Below, one piece after another: positions 3,079 to 57,482 of a DNA stretch of 64,000 nucleotides (the first letter of the stretch is position 1; every line of letters starts with the position of its first letter). The DNA is taken from positions 3,667,001 through 3,731,000 of the forward strand of contig NZ_CP092831.1 of assembly GCF_022531965.1 (NCBI RefSeq), read 5' to 3'. The translations under genes and the position numbers were made by a program. Origin of the DNA: Paenibacillus peoriae. GTDB lineage: Bacteria > Bacillota > Bacilli > Paenibacillales > Paenibacillaceae. The notes beneath the pieces were generated by a model that worked only from the letters and a program-made list of their open reading frames with translations, was not told where the DNA came from and searched no databases.

Positions 3079-4899
3079 CTAACTAATATTATATTGCATT
3101 TCTAACCATTTCAAATAATAAGGATCATGAATATGTTCTTTAATTTTTAGTTTAATAGCATCGTTATTCCTTATTTGCTCGGAGTTTAAAGCAGAACATA
3201 GCACTAAAAACTTACCTAATGGATAAGGGGACTGTATTTTAGGTTGAAAAAGATACATCATCATCTTAGGTTCTACCTTATCAAGACTAGAAAATAATAA
3301 TATTTGATTAGCGAGAGTGACAGTGTTAGGAACACCAGACGATATCTGACTGTACAAAATTTCTTCGACAACTTTATTGTTAAAATTAAGAAGCCTAGAC
3401 AATGTTGCAGTAACTTGTCTTCGCAAGAATGTATCAGTCTGCCACTTATTTTTGTATTTTCTCACAAACTTCAATAACTCTTCTGAGTGATTGTACTTTG
3501 ATTTAAACCATAATAGACAATAAAAATCGGTTGGATGAGCCCTCTCGAATGAAAATTTACTTATAAGTTTTTCGAATTCTTCTAAAAACAATTTTGATTC
3601 ATTATTATTCGGTACTTCCCATTGGGTTACTAAATAACATAATTGATATAACGAGCGATCATCAAAGATATCAATTGTCTTCATTATCTCAAGTACATTC
3701 TGGGAAGTTTCTTCGCAGTAACCAATATTATTTAGGTATTTGATAAGATTCTCTCGCAGGACAGGATAATCAACATATATTTTAGGCAATTTTTTTAATA
3801 ATTTTTTATAATTTAATTTCCCATAGAGTGTTATATATCTCTTTGCAATTTTATCCCAGTACTTTGCCCCTTTATTTTTCTCCTTAAAGTGATTAGTGAA
3901 CCTTTTATCTAATTCTTTATAGAAGTCTTTAAAATCAGTTTCTTCTTTCAATTTTTTCTCTACCATATCAATGTATCGATTTGCCTCTATCTGAAAATGA
4001 TAATAAGCCTCTTTTTCCCCATATATATTCGTTTTTGAAAGATTTAAAGCTAATCCCCTGCTTTTTAACATATCAGAGATAACACTAATTGTTTCGATTC
4101 CTTGCTTCTTTGAATCGATTCCAATAATTATATCGTCCATCCACCGTGTAAAACTGTTATTAGTCTTTTGCATAATAATATCATCTATTTCAAATAAAAA
4201 AGAATGAGCTAGGAGTCTGACTCCTTCAATGTTTGTTGTAGGTAGACCACGTTGCGAGTAAGGTAAGTAGTCCGGTTTCCAAGAGATATCTTCAATAATC
4301 TTAAACACTAAATCTATGATTACTTCATTTATTTGTGTATAGCTTGTAAATACTTTTCTCAACTCTTTAAGGTCTATACTATCGTAATAGTTTGATAAGT
4401 CAGTAACAATGATTAATTCTTTTTCATCACTAAATTTATAAATTTGTTTCTGTAACTTTTTCCACTGTGAACGCCAATTAAAATTATAGTCATCTGAATC
4501 ATGTGGTTTTCCTACACTATGTTTATCTCTTGAATAAAAAGCATTCTTTGAAGGCTGTTTAGCTAGTATACTTTCACTAATATTCTCAACTAGTACTTGA
4601 AATACAAGGGCATCAGTAGGTTGAGGTGTAACTAAGTGTCTACACACGCCAAGTTTTTTTTCAATTCTATATATAAGAGGTTGAGAAACTTTGTAAGTCC
4701 CTCCTAAAATATCATTTCGTATTGATGCTGCTCTTTCCTCGATATTAAAATTAAAATCATAATGATCGTACAGGTCTTTAAGGTCCAAACTTCTTAATTG
4801 ACTCCTAACAATTTTCCTCCAAACTTCTATTATTGTTTTTTTTTCAAAAATTTTTGACAGATCACTTTTCCTCAACTTATTAAATCTCTCTGTCTGCAA
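3079..4899 (-). CDS. Reverse transcriptase of the antiphage (UG/Abi-like) type with helical C-terminal half
   Basis: A 606-aa protein starting at TTG, 6-7 bases after AAAGGAGG. The N-terminal ~300 residues form an RT fold: motif A around D167 (IVTDLSNYYDSID), the GLPTTNIEG...LLAH motif B region, and the catalytic pair D255-D256 in TRWMDDI, where Trp replaces the usual Tyr/Phe. There is no maturase, HNH or integrase domain. The last ~290 residues look all-helical, as in Abi/DRT reverse transcriptases with helical repeats. It starts 24 bases after the membrane nuclease stop and is certainly cotranscribed with it. Its place at the prophage edge fits a superinfection-immunity gene. The DRT class cannot be assigned by eye. 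Confidence 0.85.
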   Translation of the reverse strand: MQTERFNKLRKSDLSKIFEKKTIIEVWRKIVRSQLRSLDLKDLYDHYDFNFNIEERAASIRNDILGGTYKVSQPLIYRIEKKLGVCRHLVTPQPTDALVFQVLVENISESILAKQPSKNAFYSRDKHSVGKPHDSDDYNFNWRSQWKKLQKQIYKFSDEKELIIVTDLSNYYDSIDLKELRKVFTSYTQINEVIIDLVFKIIEDISWKPDYLPYSQRGLPTTNIEGVRLLAHSFLFEIDDIIMQKTNNSFTRWMDDIIIGIDSKKQGIETISVISDMLKSRGLALNLSKTNIYGEKEAYYHFQIEANRYIDMVEKKLKEETDFKDFYKELDKRFTNHFKEKNKGAKYWDKIAKRYITLYGKLNYKKLLKKLPKIYVDYPVLRENLIKYLNNIGYCEETSQNVLEIMKTIDIFDDRSLYQLCYLVTQWEVPNNNESKLFLEEFEKLISKFSFERAHPTDFYCLLWFKSKYNHSEELLKFVRKYKNKWQTDTFLRRQVTATLSRLLNFNNKVVEEILYSQISSGVPNTVTLANQILLFSSLDKVEPKMMMYLFQPKIQSPYPLGKFLVLCSALNSEQIRNNDAIKLKIKEHIHDPYYLKWLEMQYNIS

Positions 4900-6841: not shown

Positions 6842-7708
6842 ATGAAAATTGTAACAAGCATATTGCTAACTGCCGCATTTCTTACGCTCGCAGCTTGCTC
6901 ACCTAAACAAGCTGCCACAACAAATGACACCAAGCCAACTACTACGGCAACGACTTCTGCCACAACAAATGGCACCGAGCCAACTACTACTACGGCAACA
7001 ACTTCTGCCACAACAAATGGCACCGAGCCAACTACTACTACGGCAACAACTTCTGCCACAACAAATGGCACCGAGCCAACTACTACTACGGCAACGACTT
7101 CTGCCACAACAAATGGCACCGAGCCAACTACTACTACGGCAACAACTTCTGCCACAACAAATGGCACCGAGCCAACTACTACTACGGCAACAACTTCTGC
7201 CACAACAAATGGCATCGAGCCAACTACTACTAAGGCAACAACTTCTGCCACACCAGTGGACCAAAAACAAGAAGACACGTTTACACCTATTAAAAAGGGT
7301 GAGACAGTAACAATACAGGATTATGCAGATATAGAAGTGACCGGACATAAAATTTCAAAAGAAATAGAATCATCTAATGCGGCTGTTTCTTATGAACCAA
7401 AAAAAGAAGACTCCACTTTATTAGCACTGATAATCGAAGCGAAAAATCTGAGTGCAGAATGGATGGAAGCAGATAAATTCGCGGAAGTCAGCCTGAAATA
7501 CGACAACAAGTATGATTATGATACGTTTAGCGCTATTGAATTCAGCGAAACCTTGGCTGATGATACCAAAGCAATTTTAGTAGGACCCCTCGATACCGGA
7601 AAGCTTTACTATATTGCGGAGATACCCGATGAAGTGGCTAAGAGCGATAAACCGTTAAAAGCAGAAATTAAGGTTAAGGATAAAATTTACGAATACTCGA
7701 TCAGATAG
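6842..7708 (+). CDS. Lipoprotein with threonine-rich tandem-repeat stalk
   Basis: A 288-aa protein. The signal peptide ends in lipobox LAAC (Cys19). Residues ~26-137 are seven near-identical units of 15-16 residues rich in Thr, Ala and Ser, which would form an extended, possibly glycosylated stalk. The C-terminal ~150 residues are a globular beta-rich domain of the DUF4352 type by general look. AGGGGGAT precedes the ATG. It runs against the general direction of the phage and ends at a shared terminator, so it is an independent lysogenic-conversion unit displayed on the lysogen surface. Confidence 0.8.
   Translation: MKIVTSILLTAAFLTLAACSPKQAATTNDTKPTTTATTSATTNGTEPTTTTATTSATTNGTEPTTTTATTSATTNGTEPTTTTATTSATTNGTEPTTTTATTSATTNGTEPTTTTATTSATTNGIEPTTTKATTSATPVDQKQEDTFTPIKKGETVTIQDYADIEVTGHKISKEIESSNAAVSYEPKKEDSTLLALIIEAKNLSAEWMEADKFAEVSLKYDNKYDYDTFSAIEFSETLADDTKAILVGPLDTGKLYYIAEIPDEVAKSDKPLKAEIKVKDKIYEYSIR
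6917..7249 (+). repeat. Seven-unit 45/48-bp tandem repeat in the lipoprotein gene
   Basis: One 45-bp unit is followed by six 48-bp units that differ only at a few bases. Each encodes a NGTEPTTTTATTSATT-like 16-mer. Units are a multiple of 3, so gain or loss changes stalk length without breaking the frame. Confidence 0.95.
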
Positions 7709-9335: not shown

Positions 9336-9375
9336 AAAAGGACTCCACAGCTATACTTCAGTGGAGTCCTTTTTC
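9336..9375. terminator. Bidirectional terminator
   Basis: A 13-bp perfect stem (9336-9348 with 9361-9373) with A and T runs on either side. It ends the stalk-protein gene on the plus strand and the broken secreted-protein gene on the minus strand. Confidence 0.85.
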
Positions 9376-9408
9376 ATATCTACTCAAAGTTCAAACTGAT
9401 CCAAAAAA
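9366..9408 (-). repeat. Degenerate copy of the 3' end of the 76-aa gene
   Basis: This matches the last ~40 bases of the gene at 9985-10215 (region encoding NQFEFRVDMKGP) with a few substitutions and an in-frame stop. It is the relic of a duplicated gene. The rest of the 322-bp gap 9192-9513 holds only the terminator. Confidence 0.55.
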
Positions 9409-9513
9409 CTCTCCCGACCGATTAAAGAGATTATTTCACTTACTGACTTGAACAACGCATAATTTCCCCTCCCACCCAATAGCTAGTGGGACATGTTGTA
9501 TAGTTAGGATAAG

Positions 9514-9934
9514 TTAGATGTCCCCAGGCTGTGAACTGGCTATTCCCCATGTTTCCCCATTAACTTTATAATCACTACCTCTCCACTGCAGTGTGTAGTT
9601 TCCAGAACGCAAACCGTTGGTGATACCTTCATCAGTACTTTTCCAAATAACTGTATCATGAGGAGCAATTACTAATGCTTCAATATATAGTTTGTTTGAA
9701 CCGTTATGAGTTAAACTTACTATTACTGGATGACTAGAGTGATTCTTTATACGAAGTTTAACATGCCCCCATCCCTTAGGGACATCAAAGGATTCTCCTA
9801 CAGTTGCGCTTCCGCCCGATCTTTGGTTAATTATGATGTTTTCGCTAGTTTTACTTGTTGAGGCAGAAGCAGCACTTATCGTAGTTGCTATAGCTAAAGA
9901 TAAAATCGAGAACAGAAATATTCTTTTTTTTCAT
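9514..9934 (-). pseudogene. Secreted beta-rich protein gene, out of frame at an A8 tract after the start codon
   Basis: ATG 9934 follows GGAGGGG and is followed at once by eight A (9931-9924). With eight A the start frame is wrong. With seven A it reads a perfect signal peptide (MKKRIFLFSILSLAIA, cleavage near ASA) and ~115 mature residues to TAA 9514, 139 aa in all. The body has no internal stop and keeps coding character (GWGHVKLRIKNHSSHPVIVSLTH). Homopolymer slippage, transcriptional slippage or a sequencing error are all possible. Confidence 0.75.
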
Positions 9935-9984
9935 TATTTTCCCCTCCTATTTTTTGTTATGGTCTACCTTAAAGAGACTACCGA

Positions 9985-10215
9985 CTACAATTTGGTAGGT
10001 CCTTTCATATCTACTCTAAATTCAAACTGATTACGGAAGAAATAAGATTCGTTAATCTTGATCGACTCCGGTGTAATCTTCTCCACTGCTCCACCGTAAT
10101 CCACAATATTTATAAAATCCTCACCCAACGGCTGTACAACATATACTCTTACCTGGCTTAATGCAGCAGCAAATAGTTCGATATCCGACTTTAACACTTT
10201 ATATGTATGGTTCAT
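9985..10215 (-). CDS. Hypothetical 76-aa protein
   Basis: ATG 10215 lies 5 bases after GAGGTGA. The upstream in-frame start has no ribosome site. It is a small soluble protein, MNHTYKVLKSDIELFAAALSQ at the start and QFEFRVDMKGPTKL at the end, with alternating hydrophobic residues that suggest a small alpha/beta fold. Family unknown. A decayed copy of its 3' end lies at 9366-9408. Confidence 0.55.
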   Translation of the reverse strand: MNHTYKVLKSDIELFAAALSQVRVYVVQPLGEDFINIVDYGGAVEKITPESIKINESYFFRNQFEFRVDMKGPTKL

Positions 10216-10428: not shown

Positions 10429-10461
10429 AATCCCGCCAACCAATTAAGGTTAGCGGGGATT
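10429..10461. terminator. Terminator of the RRNPP regulator-propeptide operon
   Basis: 13 paired bases with one bulge (10429-10441 with 10448-10461), 15 bases after the propeptide stop. The gap 10216-10428 has no convincing gene. Confidence 0.7.
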
Positions 10462-10475
10462 TGCTTTACTTACGT

Positions 10476-10586
10476 TTAAAATCCTCCATGCTGTACTTGA
10501 GGCTCTATACCATGCGAGTGAATAGGTACAGTAACAATTAACAAAAAGCTAGCTGCGACGATCAACAGTGCCATTTTTTTTAACAT
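10476..10586 (-). CDS. Secreted signalling propeptide (Phr/NprX/AimP-like), 36 aa
   Basis: The ORF begins MLKKMALLIVAASFLLIVTV, a Lys-Lys start and long hydrophobic core typical of a Sec signal. It ends PIHSHGIEPQVQHGGF. The mature peptide would come from the last ~12 residues. Its ATG lies inside the 3' end of the upstream HTH-TPR gene (38-nt overlap), with AAGGTGTGG about 8 bases before it. It is followed directly by a terminator. Size, overlap and composition match RRNPP propeptides. The peptide sequence itself is not one I recognise. Confidence 0.78.
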   Translation of the reverse strand: MLKKMALLIVAASFLLIVTVPIHSHGIEPQVQHGGF

Positions 10587-11961
10587 TGTTCATCCACACC
10601 TTTTCAATAAAATTTAAAAAATTTGCTTTGGTTTCAGGAGTCGCATGTTCTCGAAAATGTAAAAACAGCCCCATACAATTTATGAAATAAGTCTCATTAT
10701 TTAGTGTATGATAACTTACCATTGAATACATCAAATGTTTAAAGCCATCATCGTAAGAATTTCTATGTAAATAATAATGAGCCAACTCGTAACCACACCA
10801 AGCAAAATAATCTGGCACCACTTGTTGAGTATACATATCACTTGGTGAGTGTTGCGACAATGATACAATGTCCGCTTCAAAACGTTTAATTATGTTACTA
10901 ACATCAATATCATATCGGTTAGCCGCTATCATAATATTCAGCAGTTGGATGACCTTATCTTCTTGTGTTGTATCCTCCGCTGCATCGATGTATTCAATAT
11001 ATTCTTGCAGCACCTTTATATCTCCGGATAAAAGCTTATTGACAATAATATTAGCTTTTGCCCAATGCTTAAACAAGCCAATCCAGTGTTGGGTATCTTC
11101 GTCTGTCTCTTTAACCCAATCTAAATTAGCATAGGCGTATGTATATTGTAGAGCTTGGTGGTAATCGCCTTGGGCTTCGTAGACACCTGCACACAATAAG
11201 TCAGCATAAGCAATGTATCCAAATAGCGGCCCTCTTGTTCTCTTTTCAATATCTCGTAACTCACGTTTTTCTTGGTGTTTTAAACTATACTGGATTTCCG
11301 CTTTAGTTCTCATTTGCCTTGCCATTTCGTCTACCTTGTCCCATTTACGCAAAGACCTGTACACGTTTGCCAAGTCCTTCAATGCGTCAAGCTGGTCTAT
11401 TTCATCCAGACGTTCCACGAAGGGTTCAAATAGTGTTGCAGCCTTGAGATTCTGGCTTTGATCGTCTCCAATCTGGATCGTAAATATACGATATTGACAG
11501 ACTGCCAAACGCTCAGAATGTTGATATTTCTCCGCTTCAGCTACCCCCTCATAGAGCAACAATGCAGCCGCATTTTTTTCCTGCGACAATAATTCTTCTG
11601 CAATTTCAAATAGCTTGGGTGAATACAGTAGATTATCCATGATGGCTCCCACCACTCGACGGATCGCGTCCAACTTGTCCAACTCCGCACAGCGAAACAA
11701 AAATGGCTCGATTCGCCTCATATTCGGAGGATGGTCGATGATGTAGTTTTCTATGAACAAGTCATAAAAGTGACCTTCAGGTAAACCCATAGCCTCGGTA
11801 ATTCGGTCGAGCTGGTTAACAGACAAAGGCTTGTTTCCTGTCACGATAGCACTTACTGCTCCCCTATTCATATCCGCAATATGACCAAATTGTGTTAAAC
11901 TCAATCCTTCTTGTTGTAGGTATCTGTCTAATTCTGCTCGAATCGTAGGTGTATGCTTCAT
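10549..11961 (-). CDS. HTH-TPR quorum-sensing regulator (RRNPP family)
   Basis: A 470-aa protein starting at ATG 11961, 9 bases after AAGGGTGG. Residues ~14-60 are an XRE-type helix-turn-helix (LSLTQFGHIADMNRGAVSAI). The remaining ~400 residues are helical with TPR-like pairs (ALKDLANVYRSLRKWDKVDEMARQ, AYADLLCAGVYEAQGDYHQALQY). This is the layout of NprR, PlcR, PrgX and AimR, whose DNA binding is switched by an imported peptide. The propeptide gene overlaps its stop. It sits just downstream of lysis, so it may sense lysogen density to steer phage or cargo genes. It is longer than AimR (~380 aa). Confidence 0.85.
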   Translation of the reverse strand: MKHTPTIRAELDRYLQQEGLSLTQFGHIADMNRGAVSAIVTGNKPLSVNQLDRITEAMGLPEGHFYDLFIENYIIDHPPNMRRIEPFLFRCAELDKLDAIRRVVGAIMDNLLYSPKLFEIAEELLSQEKNAAALLLYEGVAEAEKYQHSERLAVCQYRIFTIQIGDDQSQNLKAATLFEPFVERLDEIDQLDALKDLANVYRSLRKWDKVDEMARQMRTKAEIQYSLKHQEKRELRDIEKRTRGPLFGYIAYADLLCAGVYEAQGDYHQALQYTYAYANLDWVKETDEDTQHWIGLFKHWAKANIIVNKLLSGDIKVLQEYIEYIDAAEDTTQEDKVIQLLNIMIAANRYDIDVSNIIKRFEADIVSLSQHSPSDMYTQQVVPDYFAWCGYELAHYYLHRNSYDDGFKHLMYSMVSYHTLNNETYFINCMGLFLHFREHATPETKANFLNFIEKVWMNNVKKNGTVDRRS

Positions 11962-12100
11962 GCCATAGCCACCCTTCGCATAGAAATTCCAGTATTTTAT
12001 AATCATTTACTATTTTTGCCCAACAATTAACAGTTGTCAATATCTTTTTTGCGAATCATGTGGAAAAGCCACGTTTGTCATAAGGGCACTTCTGTAAACA

Positions 12101-12139
12101 AAAAAAGCACCCCACCGGCTTTAAGCCAGCAGGGTGCTT
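12101..12139 (-). terminator. Terminator at the end of the late/lysis transcript
   Basis: Stem AAGCACCC/GGGTGCTT with an inner GGCT/AGCC pair, followed on the minus strand by six T. It lies 24 bases after the holin stop. Confidence 0.8.
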
Positions 12140-12162
12140 CGTATTTACAAACGCTTGTAAAT

Positions 12163-12378
12163 TTACAAATCGTCAGTGGTTGATGTTTCAGCCGACTTAC
12201 CATCCACATAAGCTTCAGCCAGGATATAAGCAACAACCGCGCCGAACGCACCGATTACGCCAGTTACTTGAATAACTGTATCGTTACTGGCTCCAAAAGC
12301 AGTAAGCAAGCTTGTCAGCAAAGCAGCCAGCAACGCCCAAAATTTACGGCTGGACAATTTACGTTTCCAATCTGTCAT
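12163..12378 (-). CDS. Small holin-like membrane protein
   Basis: A 71-aa protein with two hydrophobic segments (residues ~13-31 and ~38-55) and charged ends, placed directly after the endolysin, which it overlaps by 4 bases. The length and position fit a holin or antiholin. A second holin gene precedes the endolysin. Confidence 0.65.
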   Translation of the reverse strand: MTDWKRKLSSRKFWALLAALLTSLLTAFGASNDTVIQVTGVIGAFGAVVAYILAEAYVDGKSAETSTTDDL

Positions 12379-13133
12379 TGTGCGACAACTCCCCTTTTGA
12401 ATACTCCGGCTCGGTCAAGGATCGTGACCATACGGTAAAAGTCAAAGCTACCATCATTTGCTGTGTCCAGTGCCCCTACAGCCTTGGCGTTGATGCAGGC
12501 TTGCTCAGCCCACGCTGGAACCTTTGTAAGTTTGTTTGCAGATTCAAGCACGATCACACGTTTCTGTAGCGCCTTAAACGCTGCTTTTTCTTCTGCTGTC
12601 ATTTCCTCATCCTCCATATCCATTTTGTTCAATCTGGACAACACAGCATTAAGCTGCGCCTGACTTGGTCGTTTACCTGCCCGAAAGTCTGCTGTAGACA
12701 AGCCAAAGACCATCTGCAGGTGGGGCATGTCCTTGAATGTGCGCCAGTCTCCTCCCCACTCAAGCCCAAGTTTCTTCGCTTCTTCAACGACCTCCGACCA
12801 GTCAGGAAGGGAATCCTTATCATCGTCTTTCAATGTATCCCAAGACACCGTACGACCGTCACGCAACAACAGCGCGAAATCGGCCGCAAACCCAAAGTTA
12901 TGATTGCTATATCCGCCCCTGGCTTTTGTTACTTTGGGGCGCTTATCTCCATTCCGTCCCTGGGCATAGAGCGCGTCCTGCTCCGCATATGTTCGTAAAC
13001 CTTGGGTTATCACAATCCAAACACCACGGGCATAGCAGCGCTCAATTAATTTTTCTATAACAAGCTTGAAGACCGAATCTAGTCCGATCAAGCGTTTGTC
13101 AGATTTTTTCTTTAGTTGGTCCAGCGTCAGCAT
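12375..13133 (-). CDS. Endolysin, M15 family peptidase
   Basis: A 252-aa protein. The second ATG (13133) is chosen because AAGGGAG lies 9 bases before it. Residues ~20-140 are a VanY/Ply500-like M15 domain with SNHNFGFAADF (zinc His and Asp) and MPHLQM (second zinc His), cutting L-Ala-D-Glu or related peptide bonds in peptidoglycan. The C-terminal ~90 residues include EEKAAFKALQKRV and VPAWAEQACINAKAVGALD, probably a wall-targeting module. It overlaps the upstream holin gene. Confidence 0.85.
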   Translation of the reverse strand: MLTLDQLKKKSDKRLIGLDSVFKLVIEKLIERCYARGVWIVITQGLRTYAEQDALYAQGRNGDKRPKVTKARGGYSNHNFGFAADFALLLRDGRTVSWDTLKDDDKDSLPDWSEVVEEAKKLGLEWGGDWRTFKDMPHLQMVFGLSTADFRAGKRPSQAQLNAVLSRLNKMDMEDEEMTAEEKAAFKALQKRVIVLESANKLTKVPAWAEQACINAKAVGALDTANDGSFDFYRMVTILDRAGVFKRGVVAQ

Positions 13134-13587
13134 CTTTTCCATCTCCCTTGTCTTTTAACTGCTGCAAGAAACTTTTAAGCTTAAAGGGCAGTGGTATTCC
13201 CATTGCTCCCCAGTTCTCGGCCAAGGAAAGTCCTTCACGGCCAGCGTAGAAGTAAATAGCCGCCGTCCGGAAGATCGGTGCGCCTGGTTGTAGCCAATTG
13301 TCCAATTGTGCAGACAATCCCACCACCGTCAAAACCGTAGCCTTTCGAATGCCTCCCCAAAACATCACATCGCTGTCCATTTTTTTGTTTTTAATAGCTG
13401 CGGCAACTCCAAAAATATAATCCAATACCATCATCGTAAGCAGCACCTGAAGCGGCTTGTCCCACCCACCCAAAAATGTAACAATCAGACCGGTCAGCGC
13501 TGCCACTCCCCCTGCCGCCGCCTCCTTTTCCGATGTCCCGACGATTGCGGTCCATACGGTGCTGCCAAACATTTTTATTTGGCTCAC
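13099..13587 (-). CDS. Phage holin, phage_holin_4 (toxin secretion/lysis) type
   Basis: A 162-aa protein starting at GTG 13587, 8 bases after AGGGGG. It has three or so hydrophobic helices (GGVAALTGLIVTFLGG, VLLTMMVLDYIFGVAAAIKNKK, TAAIYFYAGREGLSLAENWG). The motif DYIFGVAAA...ENWGAMG is typical of the holin_4_1/TcdE family. It leads the lysis cassette. Confidence 0.85.
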   Translation of the reverse strand: MSQIKMFGSTVWTAIVGTSEKEAAAGGVAALTGLIVTFLGGWDKPLQVLLTMMVLDYIFGVAAAIKNKKMDSDVMFWGGIRKATVLTVVGLSAQLDNWLQPGAPIFRTAAIYFYAGREGLSLAENWGAMGIPLPFKLKSFLQQLKDKGDGKDADAGPTKEKI

Positions 13588-13604
13588 TACCTTTTCCCCC
13601 TTAA

Positions 13605-13633
13605 AAAATAAAGCCCCCGACCACTCCGAGGGC
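13605..13633 (-). terminator. Weak intrinsic terminator before lysis genes
   Basis: Seven-pair stem (13627-13633 with 13613-13619, one G-U) followed on the minus strand by a T-rich run. It could attenuate lysis transcription from the tail operon. Confidence 0.5.
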
Positions 13634-13665
13634 ATAAAAATAGCGCATCCGATTGGATACGCCGC

Positions 13666-13845
13666 TTACGCTTCTTGTTCTGTTGTTTGTTCAACTGCTG
13701 GAGCCACTTGCGTAGGCTCAGTAATGCCCAAGTCAGCTTTAACCAAGTCTCGCAATGCTACTGGCACGTCCTCAATTTCACGTCGGCCAGCAAGGATAAG
13801 ATGTACAAGTGTCGTCGCAAAAGCTTTTTTAATCTGTTCATTCAT
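13666..13845 (-). CDS. Small phage protein, CD1375-like
   Basis: A 59-aa protein starting at ATG 13845 after GGGGAGGTGA. The N-terminal MNEQIKKAFATTLVHLILAG followed by VALRDLVKADL resembles short proteins found after tail-fibre genes in Clostridium and Paenibacillus phages. Function unknown. Confidence 0.6.
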   Translation of the reverse strand: MNEQIKKAFATTLVHLILAGRREIEDVPVALRDLVKADLGITEPTQVAPAVEQTTEQEA

Positions 13846-13903
13846 GCTATCACCTCCCCTCATGAGCTGCATGAGAATAAAAAATAGAACCCGCTCCCGG
13901 ATT

Positions 13904-14254
13904 CTACGTAACATTGCTTTGTTCCATAACGAGCTGGATAAGCCCGGCTATGGCTTCTTTATTGTCCAGATCAGCCTGTTTCAATGCAGCATTCTCGGCT
14001 TCGGCCTTCTCTAGCCGAGTTTTAAGCTTGTCCAATTCGCTTGGCGTATCAACTTCTTGAGATACGGGCATGTCCTCAAGGGCAAACTTCTTGTCGTCAG
14101 TGTAACGGACTCGTTTACCCGCTGGAGTATTCCACACAACCTCAGGCAACTCGTCTACCTGTACGTACTTATATGGAATATCCTCAACAGATTCAACATA
14201 CTCATTCCAGCCCCATACAACACCGTCGTCATGCAAATATACGACTCTGATCAT
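13904..14254 (-). CDS. Phage tail-region protein with coiled coil (XkdW-like position)
   Basis: A 116-aa protein starting at ATG 14254 after GAGGTGA. It overlaps the stop of the tail-fibre gene. Residues ~1-70 are an acidic alpha/beta part with many aromatics. Residues ~75-105 form a coiled coil (SELDKLKTRLEKAEAENAAL). Similar small proteins follow tail fibres in PBSX-like phages. Confidence 0.55.
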   Translation of the reverse strand: MIRVVYLHDDGVVWGWNEYVESVEDIPYKYVQVDELPEVVWNTPAGKRVRYTDDKKFALEDMPVSQEVDTPSELDKLKTRLEKAEAENAALKQADLDNKEAIAGLIQLVMEQSNVT

Positions 14255-15339
14255 GGGGTCACCTCGTCGTAGCATACTTGAATATTACGAATGCTGCCCT
14301 TCATAGTGAAAGCAGGAGACTGATAATTAGCCGCATAGATATAAAAGGCGAGATACACAGGGCCAGGAGTAGTTACACGCACCACACCTTCACTTCCAAA
14401 CCAAGAATTAAATCCGGGCTTTGCTGCAGTAGAAACCACATTTGAAGACGTATTATAATCCCTGACAGTCCCTATTGCATCTCGATAATTAAACACAGTA
14501 CGCTGTACGGCGTATTCTACATAATCACTGTTATCTCCTGCACTCCAAGCGTTAGAACCTAATGCACCTACCGTAATTCCCCAGTTGCTGTTGTTATCAG
14601 TAGGGATAGTGCCTGATACAAGTTCAACTAGGCCTTCCCAGTATATGCGAAGTTCACCTAATGCCTTAGGAATGAACTTAAATACAAGCATTCTACCCGT
14701 AATATTAGCGGAACCTCCACCAGAAGCAACTTGCTGTGCATACGTCTCGGTCTGTGAAAATTTGACGTTGTTACTCGCTACTAAAGCCATATTGCTACCT
14801 CCGTTTTTCGCGCTCCAGTTCGACCAAGAACCATCAGGCCTTCTAACGCGTGTGAATATTCCGCCATTATCGTCCACATACTCGTGTTTGTGTGCCGCCG
14901 AAGCACCAGTAACCGATCCCGTAACGTATAGGTTCCCCTTTGGGAATGCTCCCGGTGGGCTATGGTCAGTTGCAGGATCAAGGGAAGGCTTATCGACCCG
15001 CCAAATCCCTATCCCCAAAGCCAAGTTAAAGTCGGCTTGAAATATATTCCCCCTATCCACCAACAAAATACTGTACAGGTCAAAAAGCGCCTTAGAGGCC
15101 GGTACTGTTAAACGAGACTGTGATTTATAGTCTTCACTCATCCGAACAACGCCTTTTTCTGTAGTGCTGGCGTCCGGTACTTTTGCCTCTTTTATAGCCT
15201 CGTTAACATACGTTTTGACATCGGAAATTTGCTTAGATAACTCTTGGTCATTCTCATAAAGCGTATCAATTGGTTTGTTAAAAACATCTGCATGACCCTG
15301 ATCAGTTGTAACAAAGCGGCGGGGTTGCTGAATAGCCAT
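14251..15339 (-). CDS. Tail fibre protein with pyocin-knob-like domain
   Basis: A 362-aa protein. The N-terminus (DVFNKPIDTLYENDQELSKQ) is a short coiled coil, followed by STTEKGVVRMSEDYKS typical of side-tail fibres. Residues ~115-185 carry a knob-like repeat (GNLYVTGSVTGA...EYVDDNGGIFTRVRRPDGSWSNW). The C-terminal half is beta-rich and is probably the receptor-binding part. It acts at the tail tip in host recognition. Confidence 0.75.
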   Translation of the reverse strand: MAIQQPRRFVTTDQGHADVFNKPIDTLYENDQELSKQISDVKTYVNEAIKEAKVPDASTTEKGVVRMSEDYKSQSRLTVPASKALFDLYSILLVDRGNIFQADFNLALGIGIWRVDKPSLDPATDHSPPGAFPKGNLYVTGSVTGASAAHKHEYVDDNGGIFTRVRRPDGSWSNWSAKNGGSNMALVASNNVKFSQTETYAQQVASGGGSANITGRMLVFKFIPKALGELRIYWEGLVELVSGTIPTDNNSNWGITVGALGSNAWSAGDNSDYVEYAVQRTVFNYRDAIGTVRDYNTSSNVVSTAAKPGFNSWFGSEGVVRVTTPGPVYLAFYIYAANYQSPAFTMKGSIRNIQVCYDEVTP

Positions 15340-52874: not shown

Positions 52875-53105
52875 TCACTCCCCTTTTGCTATTTCAGCAA
52901 AATTATTTTCAAAAAAATTTTCAACACCACACTCAAGCTCATTAGCCAACATTGGCAAATGTGTAGCTTTGAAAGAATACTCACCATTTTCATACTTCAT
53001 ATAGGACGAAGCATTCTTCATATCAAGCGCATCTGCCATATCCTGAAGTGTTTTAGAGAGTTCCTTTCTTCTTTGCTTTATAAAACGGAGATTGAATTGA
53101 TTCAT
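52875..53105 (-). CDS. Cro-like XRE repressor
   Basis: A 76-aa protein, the first gene after the early promoter. HTH at residues ~10-45 (RRKELSKTLQDMADALDMKN). GGGAGG lies before the ATG. Divergent from the repressor at 53267. Its 3' end doubles as a further operator (52885-52901). Confidence 0.8.
   Translation of the reverse strand: MNQFNLRFIKQRRKELSKTLQDMADALDMKNASSYMKYENGEYSFKATHLPMLANELECGVENFFENNFAEIAKGE
52885..52901. promoter_or_regulatory. Operator copy inside the 3' end of the Cro-like gene
   Basis: TTTGCTATTTCAGCAAA, 16 of 17 bases like the operators at 53120-53201, coding here for FAEIAK. It could let the repressor control genes beyond cro. Confidence 0.6.
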
Positions 53106-53119
53106 TCAGTCCTCCCCCC

Positions 53120-53253
53120 TTTGCTATTTTAGCAAAGTTCTTGTTTACAATATACATTGCTAAAATAGCAAAGTCAATATTTAATTTGCTTTTTTAGCAA
53201 AATTCTTTTTTCTGTTTTAGAAAAATGTTACTATGATATTGCTAAAACAGAAA
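53120..53253. promoter_or_regulatory. Phage operator cluster between cro and repressor
   Basis: Inverted-repeat sites: TTTGCTATTTTAGCAAA (53120-53136), TTGCTAAAATAGCAA (53157-53171), TTTGCTTTTTTAGCAAA (53185-53201), plus weaker TTCTGTTTTAGAAAA (53210-53224) and TTGCTAAAACAGAAA (53239-53253). The last two cover the likely repressor promoter (TATGAT near 53232). Confidence 0.8.
53149..53177 (-). promoter_or_regulatory. Early lytic promoter
   Basis: Minus-strand -35 TTGACT (53177-53172), 17-base spacer, -10 TATATT (53154-53149). The second operator fills the spacer exactly, so repressor binding would block polymerase. Confidence 0.85.
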
Positions 53254-53266
53254 GAAGGGCGGTTAA

Positions 53267-53611
53267 ATGGTGTCGGTTTCTGGAGATCGAATTAAACTAC
53301 TACGCGAGGAACGTGGTTTAAGCCAATTAGAGCTCGCTGAACGCATAGGAATAAACAATAGTGTCCTTTCCAGAATTGAGTCAGGAAAGAGAGCTATAGA
53401 AGATAAAGAGCTCAATGTTTTTGCCGACTTTTTTGAAGTTTCCGGTGATTACTTATTGGGGCGTTCGATCTCAAGATCACCTTCAGGAGGCCATGCTTAC
53501 ATGAATGGCGGTAAAGATTGGACTGAGGAAGAAAAAGAAGTTGCTGATGCGGCGATCCAAGCTTGGCGAGAAATGAAACGTAAACAACGTGAAAAAGAAC
53601 AAAAAGAATAA
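53267..53611 (+). CDS. CI-like XRE phage repressor
   Basis: A 114-aa protein. HTH at residues ~8-60 (LREERGLSQLELAERIGINNSVLSRIESGKR) then VSGDYLLGRS. It lacks a LexA-type peptidase domain, so induction probably needs the ImmA-like peptidase two genes downstream, as in ICEBs1. Operators overlap its promoter, giving autoregulation. Confidence 0.85.
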   Translation: MVSVSGDRIKLLREERGLSQLELAERIGINNSVLSRIESGKRAIEDKELNVFADFFEVSGDYLLGRSISRSPSGGHAYMNGGKDWTEEEKEVADAAIQAWREMKRKQREKEQKE

Positions 53612-54682: not shown

Positions 54683-55831
54683 ATGAAAGGGCATGTTTAT
54701 CAAAGAGGAAAGACGTGGACTTATATAATTGATCTTCCATCTGATCCACTCACAGGAGGGCGACGACAGAAAACAAAAGGTGGATTTAAAAGCGAAAAAG
54801 AAGCTTGGAAAGCTTGTCACTTGAAAATAGCTGAGATTGAAAAAGGTACTTATATTGATGATTCAAAAATAACTATCACTGAATATCTACTAGAATATCT
54901 TGAGACACATGCTAAGCCCAATTTTAAACCAACGTCTTTCGATACAGAAAAAACAATAATAGAAGCTAGAATTATACCAGTCTTGGGGAAAATCAGGTTG
55001 CAAAGCTTGACTCCTAGAATAATAAAAACATTCTACGCTGATCTACGTAAAAGTTACTCCAAAGAGTACGTTAAGAATATTCATGGTGTGCTAAAAAGGG
55101 CCTTGCGACTTGCATATACAGAGTCTGGATTGCTTTCCGAAGACATAATGAGCAAAGTATCAATGCGTAATAAAGTTAATGCAAACGAACAGAAGGAAAT
55201 GCAGTTTTGGACTATTGAAGAATTCACACAATTTCTCGACTCCTCTCGTGATCATGTTCACTTTATTGTATTTTCTCTTGCAGTTTATACGGGAATGCGA
55301 CGTGGAGAAATTTTAGGATTGCGATGGAGCGATATTGACTTTGAACAAAAGGAACTGCGGGTCATTCAAACCGCCAATTGGACACGTAATGGATTGGTTA
55401 TACAGCGCCCCAAGACAAATGATTCCATTCGCCGCGTGAAATTGTTCCAATTGATTATTGATGATCTTAGACTTAGACAAGAGCAAATAAAAGAACACAA
55501 AAAACAATATGGAGAAACTTATGAGGATAACGACCTTGTTTGCTGCTATCCATGGGGAGGATATATAAAGCCGAAGCGTATCACCGAGGGTATGGACGTG
55601 TTGGTTCGCAAGGCTGGAGTCAAGAAAATTCGCTTTCATGACCTGCGACACACACACGCTTCCTTTCTTTTACGTATAGGCATAAACCCTAAAGTAGCAG
55701 CTGAAAGACTAGGGATGACTCCTGCCATGTTCAATGAGCGATACTCTCACCTACTTCCTACAATGCAAGATGAAGCTGTAGATCGCATTGAAGCCGAATT
55801 AAATCATTACGTGGAAAAAAACTCGAACTAA
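54683..55831 (+). CDS. Tyrosine integrase
   Basis: A 382-aa protein. Arm-binding domain at the start (MKGHVYQRGKTWTYIIDLPS), core-binding SAM-like domain ~60-165, catalytic domain ~175-370: Arg in TGMRRGEILGLRW, HDLRHTHASFLL, and Tyr in NERYSHL. GGAGG precedes the ATG. It sits 1.5 kb from the intact tRNA and serves the att repeats. Confidence 0.93.
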   Translation: MKGHVYQRGKTWTYIIDLPSDPLTGGRRQKTKGGFKSEKEAWKACHLKIAEIEKGTYIDDSKITITEYLLEYLETHAKPNFKPTSFDTEKTIIEARIIPVLGKIRLQSLTPRIIKTFYADLRKSYSKEYVKNIHGVLKRALRLAYTESGLLSEDIMSKVSMRNKVNANEQKEMQFWTIEEFTQFLDSSRDHVHFIVFSLAVYTGMRRGEILGLRWSDIDFEQKELRVIQTANWTRNGLVIQRPKTNDSIRRVKLFQLIIDDLRLRQEQIKEHKKQYGETYEDNDLVCCYPWGGYIKPKRITEGMDVLVRKAGVKKIRFHDLRHTHASFLLRIGINPKVAAERLGMTPAMFNERYSHLLPTMQDEAVDRIEAELNHYVEKNSN

Positions 55832-57364: not shown

Positions 57365-57482
57365 CCCTCTATAAACAACAAAAAAACCCTTGCTACGCAA
57401 GGGTTTTTGAGGAAATGGGCCCTGAGGGACTCGAACCCCCGACCAATCGGTTATGAGCCGACCGCTCTAACCAACTGAGCTA
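57365..57482. other. attR, right prophage attachment repeat
   Basis: Second copy of the 118-bp repeat (see 2818-2935), with C instead of A at 57396. It rebuilds the tRNA 3' part and its terminator, so the tRNA stays functional after integration. Confidence 0.92.
57379..57410. terminator. Terminator after the tRNA (phage-supplied copy)
   Basis: Stem AACCCTTGC/GCAAGGGTT flanked by A and T runs, 6 bases beyond the tRNA 3' end on the minus strand. It also ends the plus-strand NUDIX transcript. Confidence 0.8.

Follow-up and report, generated by a model that had tools for sequence, protein, structure and literature searches.

Here we describe a receptor–propeptide gene pair, aloR–aloP, carried by a prophage of Paenibacillus peoriae. 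The DNA analysed (hereafter the window) is a stretch of 64,000 nucleotides (G000:C1:3667001-3731000) within a 5.84-Mb single-contig genome. Its minus strand carries an aloR-type receptor gene (10549–11961) for a protein of 470 residues, to which sequence comparison, Pfam and an AlphaFold2 model assign an N-terminal HTH domain and a C-terminal TPR superhelix. The gene runs from an ATG at 11961 to a stop codon ending at 10549; a mechanical list of open reading frames (ORFs) gives an upstream start at 12006. Its 3′ end overlaps by 38 nt (10549–10586) an aloP-type gene on the same strand (10476–10586), which encodes a 36-residue propeptide, MLKKMALLIVAASFLLIVTVPIHSHGIEPQVQHGGF. Behind aloP, a hairpin scan located a terminator-like hairpin (10432–10457, minus strand) similar to those that follow aloP in relatives. 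These coordinates bear out the layout proposed in a first-pass annotation of the sequence, namely a 470-residue HTH–TPR regulator, a 36-residue ORF overlapping it by 38 nt, and a terminator. Upstream of aloR lies a conserved promoter and putative operator, TTGACAACTGTTAATTGTTGGGCAAAAATAG (12010–12040, minus strand). Beyond it, a second terminator-like hairpin behind the lysis genes (12104–12140, minus strand), found by the same scan and located where near-identity with a chromosomal copy (G026) ends, forms the upstream border of the cassette.

Family assignment of the receptor–propeptide pair

AloR–AloP systems of Paenibacillus polymyxa and the Paenibacillaceae were published in 2020 by Voichek et al. 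(PMC7425212), and AloR has been named as a possible member of the RRNPP class (PMC9765709). Membership of the AloR cluster has been defined as at least 30% identity to AloR13 over at least 80% mutual coverage (PMC10075063). The window receptor aligns with AloR13 (L103) at 33% identity (E 2e-77) over residues 1–437 of 470 and 1–431 of 467, that is, more than 90% of both proteins, and thus falls within the cluster. The mature peptide of the experimentally studied Alo13 pair is SHGRGG (PMC7425212). Two fetched loci, L103 and L104, combine a 467-residue receptor, an overlapping propeptide ending in SHGRGG and a Spo0E-like gene (Pfam run on L103). A search for the SHGRGG pattern gave five matches in four of seven genomes, with the Alo layout only at these two loci; because the reversed control also gave two hits, AloR13 was identified by its layout and not by the pattern. 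Since the published cluster rule places it there, the window locus is, on sequence grounds, an AloR–AloP pair of the RRNPP class. Family match, layout and the co-variation described below support the RRNPP-type receptor–propeptide pair that the first-pass annotation had recognized, whereas its suggestion of a type apart from known systems does not hold.

The pair resembles other AloR–AloP systems in several respects. Its HTH–TPR receptor belongs to the same sequence family (50% identity to a plasmid copy of ATCC 842), and directly behind it stands a short propeptide with a predicted N-terminal hydrophobic helix and a putative C-terminal signal; at 36 residues, it lies within the 32–50 residues given for AloP-type ORFs, which sit right behind the receptor and begin with such a helix. 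As elsewhere in Paenibacillus, copies are numerous: the P. peoriae genome has 18 receptor matches (the query and 17 others), and, of 75 Paenibacillus genomes, at least 62, this one included, contain a match at E ≤ 1e-100. Named relatives come from P. ottowii, brasilensis, maysiensis, terrae, farraposensis, faecalis, campinasensis and strain BJ-4 (25 loci), and further relatives are found on 34 plasmid records and in ten IMG/VR loci; phage records gave only two matches, at 22.5 and 25.1% identity. The window pair differs in lying in a prophage behind lysis genes, a setting for which the main text of PMC7425212 does not use the word ‘prophage’, and in its predicted signal, near QVQHGGF as against the SHGRGG of Alo13. 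It also has no adjoining Spo0E-like gene (frequent, but not defining, in the family); in its place downstream are a small conserved gene, ORF76, and a broken secreted-protein gene. Cluster 8 of RRNPP_detector, also from Paenibacillaceae, is set apart from AloR in its description (PMC10075063), on which our comparison is based.

Membership of the arbitrium family was rejected, as no AimR chain appeared among PDB sequence matches at E ≤ 10 (single sequence) or E ≤ 1 (48-row profile), in agreement with the earlier remark that the pair is unlike known arbitrium pairs. In contrast to AimR–AimP of Bacillus phages, it does not stand beside the CI/Cro-like genes. Nor does it match Rap–Phr, found in Bacillus phages and mobile elements: a DNA-binding domain is absent from Rap receptors (PMC10075063, figure legend), whereas the window receptor has an HTH.

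Conservation of the propeptide and co-variation with its receptor

By a loose rule (a hydrophobic ORF of 25–65 residues, preceded by a ribosome-binding site, at the receptor 3′ end), a propeptide ORF accompanies 70 of the 81 distinct fetched receptors, query included. A stricter rule, applied to a second and slightly different set, found it at 68 of 81 receptors, with an offset of exactly −38 in 51 of the 68. The same loose and strict rules caught 14 and 3, respectively, of 233 other ORFs of at least 200 residues at the fetched loci. Because 70 of 81 receptors carry such an ORF as against 14 of 233 controls, the propeptide ORF is, as judged from its sequence, real and no chance frame. Among receptors at least 60% identical to the query, which is counted here, 45 of 49 have it; the four misses are L075, which stops at a contig end, and L062, L063 and L081, in which the receptor end is altered. 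These last three, whose C-terminus is changed and for which the rules used find no propeptide ORF, are possible orphan or eavesdropping receptors. Substitutions in the propeptide are mostly synonymous, with omega at roughly 0.16 where the two genes overlap and 0.35 beyond that (rough values, from pairwise counting at a high proportion of synonymous differences, pS).

The C-terminal QVQHGG is kept in all eight fetched relatives at 82% receptor identity or more, and conservation of the short ORF in relatives that keep the regulator, on which the first-pass annotation had let its claim depend, is thus present. In L074, which coincides with L051 of P. brasilensis, the linker differs and the peptide end is that of the window, whereas L086 has two extra residues after QVQHGG and a damaged receptor frame. 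As the end in L074 is kept despite a different linker, the mature signal of AloP is predicted to lie in the last 6–8 residues (PQVQHGGF). The earlier placement of the peptide at the C-terminal end therefore stands, and its length of about 12 residues does not, the conserved and best co-varying part being the last 6–8 (QVQHGG[FA]).

Receptor and peptide change together. We compared 42 pairs, reduced from 45 through 44 by leaving out L086, for its two additional residues, and two near-identical receptors. Distance over the last eight peptide residues tracks that of receptor residues 76–470 (r 0.67) and not that of residues 1–75 (r 0.02), with a partial correlation of 0.71 that none of 5,000 permutations reached; a caveat is that the receptors are related and the permutation ignores the tree. 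Simple linkage does not account for this, because the correlation is highest for receptor segment 376–405 (r 0.75), whereas the segment closest to the peptide gene (from 466) gives an r of 0.27. Within the propeptide, the signal part never exceeds an r of 0.35, and the linker reaches 0.54. The best single receptor columns are 386, 388, 338, 384, 389, 332, 385, 303 and 308, almost all of which lie on three helices in the AlphaFold2 model.

That model (predicted local distance difference test score, pLDDT, 87.3; predicted template modelling score, pTM, 0.78) is all-helical, with an HTH and a long TPR-like superhelix, and HTH regulators are among the PDB matches of the receptor profile. Pfam matches, model and fold comparison agree on the HTH plus TPR-like regulator described at first, and the TPR fold that had been expected of it is present as the superhelix. 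The fold by itself is no proof of RRNPP, as the fold search placed LGN and other TPR proteins level with NprR or higher. Two results weigh against an RRNPP pair: the Pfam matches to the receptor are weak and below the gathering score (HTH_3, E 0.003; TPR_7, E 0.0015), and the 14 control ORFs pass the loose rule as well. They would suit a generic HTH–TPR regulator followed by a short ORF that is a chance frame. We regard this as extremely improbable, given the 70 receptors that pass the same rule, the coding constraint, the recurrent −38 offset and the co-variation with the receptor.

Cassette elements, prophage setting and copies elsewhere

The promoter/terminator scan found four terminators as against 2.0 in shuffled sequence and six promoters as against 7.7, and is by itself no evidence for the hairpins and the promoter (which it placed at 12012–12040), whose support is conservation. 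Upstream of aloR, a block TATTGACA...TGG-CAA-AATAG is kept and its flanks diverge. Across four whole genomes the promoter pattern occurs 14 times, each time just upstream of an aloR (reversed control, 0), and it is exact at 4 of the 14 long aloR copies of the P. peoriae genome; as a pointer to a wider regulon it was dropped, since it matches only at aloR genes in these four genomes. Hairpins follow aloP in relatives, with a C[CT]AACCT core in 26 of 44 distinct stretches and not in the rest; RNAalifold gave no consensus for these stretches because of indels. In L028 an unusually long, near-perfect hairpin (−50.5 kcal/mol) lies 70 nt behind aloP.

The window has phage matches to integrase, terminase, head protein, sheath, tape measure, collar fibre, holin and endolysin. 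A repeat search found two copies of a 118-nt direct repeat, 99% alike and overlapping two tRNA-Met genes (attL-like, 2818–2935; attR-like, 57365–57482), which bound a complete-looking contractile prophage of ~54.5 kb. An integrase gene (54683–55831, plus strand; library match) adjoins the right copy, and divergent Cro-like (52875–53105, minus strand) and CI-like (53267–53611, plus strand) HTH genes lie nearby at 52875–53611. The lysis genes (12163–13635, minus strand) comprise a holin-like gene (12163–12378), an endolysin gene (12375–13142) and a holin gene (13099–13635). The alo pair sits between endolysin and attL, among cargo that includes a UG13a reverse transcriptase, a thermonuclease–Excalibur protein and a copper-amine-oxidase-N-domain protein. 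This gene map, with the CI/Cro-like pair at the far end, agrees with the first description of a myovirus-type prophage whose regulator–peptide pair stands after lysis near cargo and not by the repressor. In the cargo, the reverse transcriptase (3079–4899, minus strand; PADLOC E 2e-226) is a candidate anti-phage defence-associated reverse transcriptase (DRT), and a lipoprotein-like ORF (6842–7708, plus strand) contains tandem 48-nt repeats encoding a 16-residue T-rich unit.

ORF76 (9985–10215, minus strand) encodes a small conserved protein for which a Pfam search gave no match. It stands within 1.5 kb behind aloP at 16 of the 68 receptors with a peptide, and all three of its copies in the P. 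peoriae genome are behind an aloR; in G025–G027, 6 of 15 ORF76 match rows (two of them one place) lie within 1.5 kb behind listed aloR matches. It was dropped as a sure dedicated alo target, as it also occurs at lysis loci whose fetched stretch has no alo (85% identical in L114; 77% in L117, with an endolysin at 63%; fragments in L116). Among the best 120 of 144 homologues every genus named is Paenibacillus, with some entries from compost metagenomes and one ‘Bacillota bacterium’. The broken remnant of a small secreted-protein gene follows (9370–9960, limits approximate, minus strand), intact as 132/140 residues behind ORF76 in L088/L089. A 29-nt direct repeat, 93% alike, at the ORF76 end and 631 nt further (10003–10031 and 9372–9400) suggests rearrangement in the cargo zone.

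Copies of the cassette recur in other settings. The window and G026 are 98.8% identical over 10432–12138, beyond which the 20 kb fetched contain no shared stretch of 250 nt or more; around the G026 copy the genes look chromosomal, and a beta-protein gene is present. A 92% copy is carried by plasmid pPPM1a of P. polymyxa M1, and the QVQHGG clade of the receptor tree mixes prophage, plasmid and chromosomal copies. Nine tree rows with two or more window-type phage genes next to alo were labelled prophage and 11 weak, IMG/VR membership of L073–L082 being no proof. The prophage labels change seven times along the tree and cluster no better than shuffled ones, since 281 of 500 shuffles gave a count at least as low (bootstrap not settled); for the weak-phage labels 79 of 500 shuffles did so. 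An exchangeable Alo cassette in phage cargo is the best reading of these sequences.

Neighbouring genes vary between copies. In L077 (IMG/VR), YolD-like, AgrB-like and LytTR genes (Pfam) at 12118–14301 downstream of alo may form a second, agr-type signalling cassette, and similar ORFs were seen by eye in L080 and L073. A beta-protein gene (PF14350, Pfam run on L083) and a 191-residue gene precede alo at L083 6798–8421 (chromosomal G026), and a like pair was seen by eye at L089 2272–3895 (second own-genome prophage region).

Proposed working and alternative readings

We think it probable that the pair is an AloR–AloP signalling cassette, with open receptor and peptide frames, that forms an accessory module in prophage cargo between the lysis genes and attL. 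In the Alo13 experiments, AloR activates a downstream promoter and the peptide shuts this promoter off (PMC7425212). By analogy, AloP would be exported, cut outside the cell to about its last 6–8 residues, near QVQHGGF, and re-imported by an oligopeptide permease. The peptide would then bind the C-terminal TPR half of AloR and change the action of AloR at its target promoter, in a direction that we infer. The likeliest direct target would be the promoter of the cassette itself at 12010–12040, and the cassette is probably autoregulated; ORF76, behind the terminator, and other cargo may be further targets.

A tentative alternative is that the pair is a passenger of the host Alo repertoire, brought into the prophage by exchange and serving host social or sporulation control, or nothing particular. 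The 17 further matches in the genome would fit this, one of them with a Pfam-confirmed Spo0E-like gene behind it (L094) and three more so judged by eye, as would five own-genome copies or pairs with no window-type phage genes in 20 kb (L093–L095, L101 and L102), the 1.7-kb near-identity with a chromosomal copy and the seven label changes on the tree, matched in 281 of 500 shuffles. Yet placement behind lysis genes recurs in related prophages, and the window locus has no Spo0E-like gene.

An arbitrium-like role, in which the peptide would report lysogen or infection density and AloR would steer lysis–lysogeny or prophage induction, appears unlikely. The prophage location and the open receptor–peptide pair speak for it, and at endolysin places at least 75% identical, among the matches listed, aloR lies within 10 kb in six of nine. 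In the other three (L114–L116), however, no aloR was found in the fetched 17.5 kb; L114 has a holin-like gene and ORF76 without alo, and in L116 the holin-like gene is closely followed by no more than fragments of ORF76. At 0.56–0.59 Mb of the P. peoriae genome, a second prophage region, whose terL, portal, sheath, LysM and xkdQ products are 93–98% identical to those of the window prophage, has an AloR that is 75% identical and a peptide of another dialect, ending LFDQVGGA. Its xkdT, baseplate J, xkdR, tube, xkdS, head and collar proteins are only 78–90% identical, which makes the receptor less outlying than the best-kept genes suggest and lowers the weight of this reading and of the phage-dialect proposal below. 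The pair is ~41 kb from the CI/Cro-like genes in the integrated prophage, a distance that excision would shorten to ~11 kb across the att junction, and exact promoter matches in the four genomes occur only at aloR genes. The same dialect is found on pPPM1a and at the chromosomal G026 site, and some related lysis loci lack the pair; as copies of this dialect that lie outside prophages would feed the same signal, the original idea that the peptide tells the prophage about lysogen density is unsupported.

A bolder proposal, which we hold to be doubtful, is that phages have a second signalling dialect system, without sequence relation to AimR, and that contractile prophages of the P. polymyxa group are its carriers. 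Post-lysis alo cassettes would be swapped, co-resident ones (PQVQHGGF and LFDQVGGA) would be mutually deaf, and they would control cargo, including the UG13a reverse transcriptase, or induction.

That chromosomes, plasmids and phages share RRNPP systems is already known from RRNPP_detector, as is an AloR–AloP system on a Brevibacillus plasmid (PMC10075063). Among the titles that our literature searches listed, we found no description of Alo pairs in Paenibacillus prophages or of a recurrent post-lysis site, although the supplements of PMC10075063 may list such cases, and none of differing Alo dialects in co-resident related prophages. Returning to the accessory signalling cassette, Alo signalling, known from Paenibacillus genomes, is now placed in prophages at a recurrent site. 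The predicted signal QVQHGGF, the promoter element and the receptor segment (columns 303–308, 338–345 and 384–389) provide testable handles. Should the copies in prophages prove to act on phage genes, a second receptor family would join arbitrium in phage peptide signalling.
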